35,918 bases of DNA. Origin: Tissierellia bacterium. Its GTDB lineage: Bacteria; Bacillota; Clostridia; Tissierellales; Tepidimicrobiaceae. The translations under genes and the position numbers were made by a program. Below are positions 12,328-12,693 of the stretch, piece after piece. Position 1 is the stretch's first letter. The number at the start of each line of letters is the position of its first letter. Location: contig JAAYEM010000018.1 of NCBI GenBank assembly GCA_012728725.1, forward strand, positions 1-35,918. Reading direction: 5' to 3'. A model generated the notes under the pieces. It was given only the letters and a program-made list of their open reading frames with translations, was not told the DNA's origin and did no database searches.

Positions 12328-12621
12328 TTATAGGAATCTCAATATAGTTGGCAAATATAAGATCAAAATAGCCATAATAGTAGATAGCCAGAATATTATC
12401 CTGGTTATCTTTCCTGAATCTTTCTTCTCTATCATACTATAGGATTTATAAATCATAATCCCTGTGATGAGCACAAATAAAGGCTTAAACTTTGTTAAAT
12501 TTGCAAAGTATGCTGAACCTATTCCTATACCTAGGAAGGCTAATATTAGTCCACCACTTCAACAAAATGCAGCTGCTAATGCAGGTATAATAGATAGGAT
12601 ACTAAGTACTCTCTCTTTCAT
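12328..12621 (-). CDS. candidate selenoprotein: MerT-like membrane protein with in-frame TGA (Sec21)
   Basis: A 97-codon gene interrupted only by TGA at 12559-12561 (codon 21); ATG 12621 follows GAAGGTGG by 7 nt. Reading TGA as selenocysteine gives AAAFCUSGGLILAFLG, then GSAYFANLTKFKPLF, and later IIFWLSTIMAILILYLP. This parallels the MerT mercuric-transport family, in which a vicinal CC pair in the first membrane helix is followed by G-x-L..ALG, G-W-IGNLT-x-L-x-P and a third helix beginning FW. The TGA stands exactly at the second Cys. Past it the frame is clean to TAA, with three membrane segments. 27 nt after TGA is a hairpin fitting bacterial SECIS rules. The second MerT cysteine pair is absent and no mer genes are near, so the ligand may not be mercury. 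The alternative is a Cys-to-stop pseudogene. Confidence 0.7.
12522..12537 (-). promoter_or_regulatory. SECIS-like hairpin downstream of the in-frame TGA
   Basis: On the minus strand TTCCTA-GGTA-TAGGAA forms a perfect 6-bp stem with a 4-nt loop starting with GG; 27 nt separate the TGA from the loop. Flanking CC and GG can extend the stem past a small bulge. The bacterial SECIS model as I know it asks for a small apical loop with a G in the first two positions, roughly 16-37 nt from the UGA, inside the coding region; all are met. Confidence 0.6.
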
Positions 12622-12665
12622 CTCATAACCACCTTCAAATTATTTTTAAGTTTAGTTATAAACCT

Positions 12666-12693
12666 ATTATACCCCTATATAGTATCAAGTTAA
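12666..12693 (-). promoter_or_regulatory. SigA-type promoter of the MerT-like gene
   Basis: On the minus strand TTAACT (12688-12693) and a perfect TATAAT (12666-12671) are 16 nt apart, about 45 nt upstream of the ATG. The spacer has AGGGG next to the -10. The spacing is not the 19-20 nt of MerR-activated promoters. Confidence 0.5.

Follow-up and report, generated by a model that had tools for sequence, protein, structure and literature searches.

Closest described systems

Selenocysteine (Sec)-containing MerT proteins are already known as a family, so the family as such is not new. A selenoprotein family named "putative mercuric transport protein" (PF02411; ABB16073.1, motif C/SxxU) is listed in PMC9312934 and PMC13188914, and the GOS survey (PMC2398784) lists a mercuric transport selenoprotein by name. 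Reviews give such Sec-containing metal transporters by name with little more said. The reviews' example, ABB16073.1, presumably comes from Carboxydothermus hydrogenoformans.

Two further entries come close to the locus described here. NCBIfam holds a model of a MerT/CopZ fusion-like heavy metal transport selenoprotein (NF045683), which includes a MerT-like domain and a CopZ-type domain in 235 positions. Plasmid NZ_CP008814 of Enterococcus faecalis carries a Sec-MerT gene (WP_252100557.1) within the order merR-merF-MerT-merA, and RefSeq reads it through TGA as a "mercuric transporter MerT family protein". This mer operon was found by a tblastn search of plasmids with a distant homologue of our protein; the same search with our protein itself gave no match. 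In the operon, the Sec-MerT gene is followed by a frame for a MerP-like lipoprotein (L253, 3299-3480). Its metal-binding motif contains TGA (DGFT-TGA-VSC), so that two selenoproteins are predicted in the same operon.

A MerT-like frame interrupted by TGA

The window, that is, the whole stretch of 35,918 nucleotides that was analysed, is one contig (C57) of the draft genome G000 of a Tissierellia bacterium. The gene under study and its signals lie on its minus strand.

12328..12621, minus strand: coding sequence of a MerT-like selenoprotein, 97 aa (ATG at 12621-12619, TAA at 12330-12328; the same frame in 20 close homologues)
12559..12561, minus strand: TGA codon 21, predicted to be decoded as Sec (TGA in 21/21 Tissierellales sequences and in the same column of distant Sec homologues)
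12562..12564, minus strand: TGT codon of Cys20, the vicinal partner of Sec21 (Cys in 21/21 close homologues)
12522..12537, minus strand: SECIS hairpin TTCCTA-GGTA-TAGGAA, loop at 12531-12528 (covariation; loop GG in 46/46)
12629..12635, minus strand: ribosome binding site AAGGTGG (from sequence; relatives have GGAGG at a similar position)
12666..12693, minus strand: sigma-70-like promoter TTAACT-16-TATAAT, 10/12 (not enriched over chance)
12669..12685, minus strand: putative, imperfect palindrome of the CsoR/CstR type, ATACTATATAGGGGTAT, which overlaps the -10 element (10/12 to ATACCC-N5-GGGTAT; shuffling p = 0.005)

The frame translates as MKERVLSILSIIPALAAAFC-U-SGGLILAFLGIGIGSAYFANLTKFKPLFVLITGIMIYKSYSMIEKKDSGKITRIIFWLSTIMAILILYLPTILRFL, with TGA codon 21, directly after Cys20, as its single internal stop. 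The initial annotation had described a 97-codon frame broken at this codon, with a good ribosome site and promoter. The frame is confirmed on the minus strand from 12621 to 12328, as is the ribosome site; a promoter-like site is indeed present but at chance level (five such sites in a scan of the AT-rich stretch, 4.4 expected). The gene is flanked by a DUF4474 gene and a gene with a tRNA-binding domain, with gaps of 524 and 131 bp. Its product is probably a small membrane protein of about 11 kDa with three helices; structure prediction returned three helices in a low-confidence model (pLDDT 59). As the initial annotation had also stated, no mer genes were found in the window, and the protein has no Cys beyond Cys20 and thus no second Cys pair.

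Similarity to MerT is detectable but below all family thresholds. The protein matches the Pfam MerT family (PF02411) with an E-value of 3.6e-4 and 21 bits against a cut-off of 32.9, and NCBIfam merT_RC607 (NF033560) with 4.5e-8 and 33 bits against a cut-off of 130. The match of this 97-aa protein to NF045683 is weak as well (E-value 7e-4; 19 of the 375 bits required). Three homologues from other Sec branches do exceed the Pfam MerT cut-off (36-39 bits). In the alignment, Cys20-Sec21 corresponds to the first vicinal CC pair of MerT helix 1, Sec taking the place of the second Cys. The window protein resembles the MerT proteins of mer operons in its small size, in an LTxxxPL segment and in the vicinal pair, where its Sec aligns with the second Cys of CC; it may also share their three-helix membrane topology. 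In contrast to them, it has Sec instead of Cys, is not accompanied by mer genes, and lacks the second Cys pair, which MerT carries in the loop that joins helices 2 and 3. The gene is missed by gene callers that stop at TGA, as had been predicted, and its product reaches the threshold of none of the Pfam and NCBIfam models that it matched.

Conservation of the TGA codon

When 199 relatives were searched at the protein level with stops tolerated, 20 Tissierellales homologues with 52-67% identity were obtained, each containing exactly one TGA. In the codon alignment of the window gene with these 20, codon 21 is TGA and codon 20 encodes Cys in all 21 sequences; Cys in place of Sec was found in none of them, and neither was any other stop or sense codon. 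Downstream of TGA, third codon positions of the close set differ at 0.57 and second positions at 0.18. The dN values for this part are 0.21-0.34, with dS above 1 or saturated, which indicates purifying selection over the 76 codons after TGA.

The same column is occupied by TGA far beyond this group. A profile searched against 398 genomes from across the phylum detected 25 further MerT-like loci of Bacillota with a single TGA. The distant TGA loci that were read through, 23 of these 25 plus G044 from the search of relatives, all have TGA in the column of the window Sec (24 of 24), while two other distant homologues (G255 and G407b) have Cys-Cys there. The initial annotation had pointed to homologues at codon 21 as a check, and the outcome is in its favor: TGA in all close homologues and in 24 of the 26 distant loci, the remaining two being the Cys-Cys proteins. 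A protein scan of the collection returned one locus only. The NCBIfam MerT/CopZ selenoprotein model gave no match over its cut-off in the 398 genomes, and its matches were mainly to the C-terminal, CopZ-type half.

The SECIS element and the decoding machinery

The stem of the hairpin starts 21 nt after TGA, and its loop, beginning with GG, starts 27 nt after TGA. The initial annotation had placed the stem-loop at 27 nt; hairpin and GG-first loop are as described, and the distance is that of the loop, not of the stem. Taken by itself, the window hairpin is weak evidence: under synonymous recoding an equal hairpin with G early in the loop arises with p ~0.09, and we rejected it as stand-alone proof of a SECIS element. 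Rfam has no corresponding model and gave no SECIS match to the hairpin. The proof is comparative. In the close set (n = 21) the 6-bp stem is 95% paired, and nine two-sided changes were counted against 2.2 in shuffled sets (0 of 500). Gly31 is encoded by GGT in 21/21 sequences and Ser29 by TCC in 12/12, whereas the remaining Gly and Ser codons are mostly variable. The loop begins with GG in all 46 sequences (21 close and 25 distant). The loop-closing pair in the 25 distant sequences is C-G in eight, A-T in five, G-C in four, T-A in four, and others in four; since the paired bases are in most cases the third positions of two Leu codons, the covariation is not explained by the protein. Conservation across the 46 sequences, together with the compensatory synonymous changes, settles the predicted hairpin after TGA as a bacterial SECIS element, in agreement with the earlier reading.

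All four genes named earlier for a genome-wide check (selA, selB, selC and selD) are present in the genome of the window. They are on contig C64: the tRNA-Sec gene selC (73 bits, above the cut-off), selB (374 bits, cut-off 242), selA (630 bits) and selD (382 bits). The selD gene (L052, 13180-12147, minus strand; start MTKASG) has an in-frame TGA of its own, MENRLTQMTKASG-TGA-AAKIGP. The cell would thus need Sec decoding for its own selenophosphate synthetase, which serves as an internal positive control. Among the relatives, selB is present in 22/22 TGA-bearing genomes (the 21 close ones and G044) and in 141/199 overall (hypergeometric p = 3e-4).

From these comparisons we are nearly certain that the window locus is a genuine selenoprotein gene, and predicted Sec decoding is well supported; the decoding signals, the Cys-Sec pair and its selective maintenance are established at the sequence level. 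TGA terminates by default, and the window hairpin could be due to chance if viewed alone, so that the frame might be a 20-aa leader or a pseudogene. This is highly improbable: the codon is invariably TGA in 21/21 assemblies, with no other stop and no sense codon in its place, the 76 codons beyond it are conserved with dN well below dS, and a covarying SECIS element is accompanied by the full sel machinery. The invariant TGA and selection after it effectively refute a genuine stop. A Cys codon turned into TGA by sequencing or assembly error, conceivable in a draft of 108 contigs with 92% completeness, has the least chance of all and is refuted by the same TGA in 20 other independent assemblies, among which are eight genera other than that of the window and two single-contig assemblies.

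A separate branch and its genomic contexts

The maximum-likelihood tree unites the Tissierellales genes (support 98/94) and joins them to a small sister clade (99/96); the mer-operon and the rhodanese-linked branches are separate from these. The suggestion of a separate branch is thus borne out.

Three types of genomic context were observed. The genes of close relatives stand alone, their neighbors being most often on the opposite strand, and no conserved operon neighbor is common to all Tissierellales. Of the 21 Tissierellales genomes with the gene, 20, including that of the window, have no MerA above the cut-off. In the second group, Sec-MerT is accompanied by ArsR-like and CopZ-like genes, and in G044 also by MerA. 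The third group (10 loci) has the CxxU type of motif, with a rhodanese lipoprotein encoded directly downstream of Sec-MerT.

The listed mercuric transport selenoproteins are likewise MerT-like with predicted Sec. Their C/SxxU motif fits the homologue from G245, which reads GCIT-U-VGP and whose Sec aligns with that of the window protein. In contrast to the G245 protein, to which the window protein has 31% identity, the window branch has a vicinal CU, no rhodanese partner, and, in most members, a putative CsoR/CstR-type palindrome. The E. faecalis Sec-MerT has the same TGA codon and the same type of SECIS element (CCACTT-GGTCT-AAGTGG), but it is only 30% identical to the window protein and is encoded in a mer operon.

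The branch described here is new: it is stand-alone, falls below the Pfam and NCBIfam cut-offs, and occurs without MerA in all but one of its 21 genomes. Neither the Tissierellales branch nor its vicinal CU motif, SECIS covariation or operator link was found described in the literature examined. The whole branch is now documented, with predicted Sec kept in every Tissierellales member found and a SECIS element with synonymous covariation.

Further TGA-containing frames were seen near some of the distant genes. In three loci (L146, L142 and L155 of G245, G319 and G284), a HesB-like frame with MAYGGG-TGA-CPVQQ, a selenoprotein candidate, is located about 1.4 kb upstream of merT-U; it is followed by a CcmH-like gene and lgt, and downstream are merT-U-rhodanese and a glutaredoxin gene. 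Near another Sec-MerT gene (L085/L144, G407:C3), a frame reads FGSRRYDCGGG-TGA-GSSQSQ.., with TGA after a Cys-Gly stretch, and could encode a redox selenoprotein.

A putative operator and candidate regulon

Palindromes similar to ATACCC-N-GGGTAT (10-11 of 12 positions) were found upstream of the gene in 14 of 20 close relatives; the window copy is less perfect, with 10/12. No merT-U upstream region reached 12/12, and the palindrome is absent in six close relatives (G112, G109, G081, G145, G085 and G013). It is usually located between the promoter and the ribosome binding site, with which its right arm merges in several relatives. Eight sequences were put to a shuffling test, and seven of them gave p = 0.001-0.005. 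Most CsoR-RcnR sites are pseudo-palindromes with runs of at least four G or C, several of them with TAC/GTA arms, and CstR is a reactive-sulfur sensor that often represses rhodaneses (PMC10318464). Each of the 12 genomes studied has two or three DUF156 regulators; the group-1 DUF156 genes that were inspected had no such palindrome in their upstream regions.

A genome-wide count of the palindrome in the 12 genomes gave no enrichment over the reversed control. Consequently, the analysis was confined to exact sites that lie between genes and shortly precede a gene start, and the regulon link rests on these. Such a site precedes a gene for a YruB-type glutaredoxin at a short distance in nine of the 12 genomes, including that of the window, where ATACCCGTATGGGGTAT lies 57 bp upstream of the gene (contig C42, 26017-26031; L216). 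Sites were also found upstream of CcdA/DsbD in four genomes and of an SBF-family transporter in two. Further candidates, each found once, are a thioredoxin-reductase-like flavoprotein, OsmC, a DUF302 protein and an apparent NAD(P)H-FMN-type protein. Judging from these shared sites, the branch is apparently under common control with thiol-redox genes, and the putative operator offers a testable regulon.

Proposed function

The SECIS element just after UGA codon 21 would let SelB bring Sec-tRNA, yielding a protein of about 11 kDa that would be inserted into the inner membrane with the vicinal Cys20-Sec21 in helix 1. A selenolate beside a thiol lowers the pKa and raises the affinity for Hg(II), Cu(I) and sulfane sulfur. 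The Cys-Sec pair, a membrane site of this kind being an addition to selenium biology, would most likely work with the cellular thiol pool, binding a soft thiophile or passing it across or at the membrane. The candidate thiophiles are sulfane sulfur/persulfide and soft metal ions, for example Hg(II) or Cu(I). The operators and the context point to induction together with glutaredoxin, CcdA/DsbD and thioredoxin-reductase-like proteins via a repressor of the CsoR/CstR family. We consider it fairly likely that the Tissierellales branch comprises stand-alone Sec-MerT-like proteins that handle a soft thiophile with the thiol pool and are induced through such a repressor. The function is probably soft-metal or sulfane-sulfur/thiol handling, and classical mercury transport or resistance is probably not its role.

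Which thiophile is handled can be proposed with less confidence. We tentatively suggest, at somewhat less than even chance, that the clade is a selenium-dependent membrane part of the reactive-sulfur/thiol-redox response and not a mercury transporter. On this view, a CstR-like regulator would repress it jointly with glutaredoxin, CcdA/DsbD, thioredoxin-reductase-like, OsmC and DUF302 proteins, and the related proteins with a rhodanese partner would have an equivalent role in other Bacillota. Sulfane sulfur is favored by these rhodanese partners and by the palindrome common with thiol-redox genes.

Homology and the other branches favor a MerT-type Hg(II) uptake transporter in which Sec raises the affinity, as in a mer operon: the window protein is homologous to MerT, and other Sec-MerT genes occur with merR, merF and merA on the Enterococcus plasmid or with ArsR- and CopZ-like neighbors and, in G044, MerA. 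For the Tissierellales branch this is nevertheless unlikely, given the lack of MerA above the cut-off in 20 of its 21 genomes, the absence of mer genes from the window, its position as a separate clade, and the palindrome shared with thiol-redox genes; moreover, a cell that took up Hg but had no reductase would probably be damaged. This suggests that "MerT" homology need not imply mercury resistance.

A role in copper handling, as part of a CsoR copper response, is similarly doubtful. It is favored by what is seen for the CsoR family in general, and is consistent with the CsoR-type palindrome, with a copA-copZ-csoR arrangement in the same genomes, where sites with C/G runs lie close to the start of copA, and with CopA proteins that have TGA in an HMA motif (G124 and G127). 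However, the copA sites are unlike the ATACCC..GGGTAT type, and the other genes behind the palindrome are thiol-redox genes, not copper genes.

TGA codons in copper ATPases

The copA gene of the window's genome (contig C5; L203, near 4370) has an in-frame TGA within GTGK(TGA)AENGIL, at a position where copper ATPases usually have Gly; this TGA is possibly a sequence error or the mark of a broken gene rather than a Sec codon. The copper P-type ATPases of G124 (contig C43) and G127 (contig C9) have TGA in the second HMA motif (GMT-TGA-SSC; L211 and L212, near 1785) and resemble a listed cation-ATPase selenoprotein with the UxxC motif.
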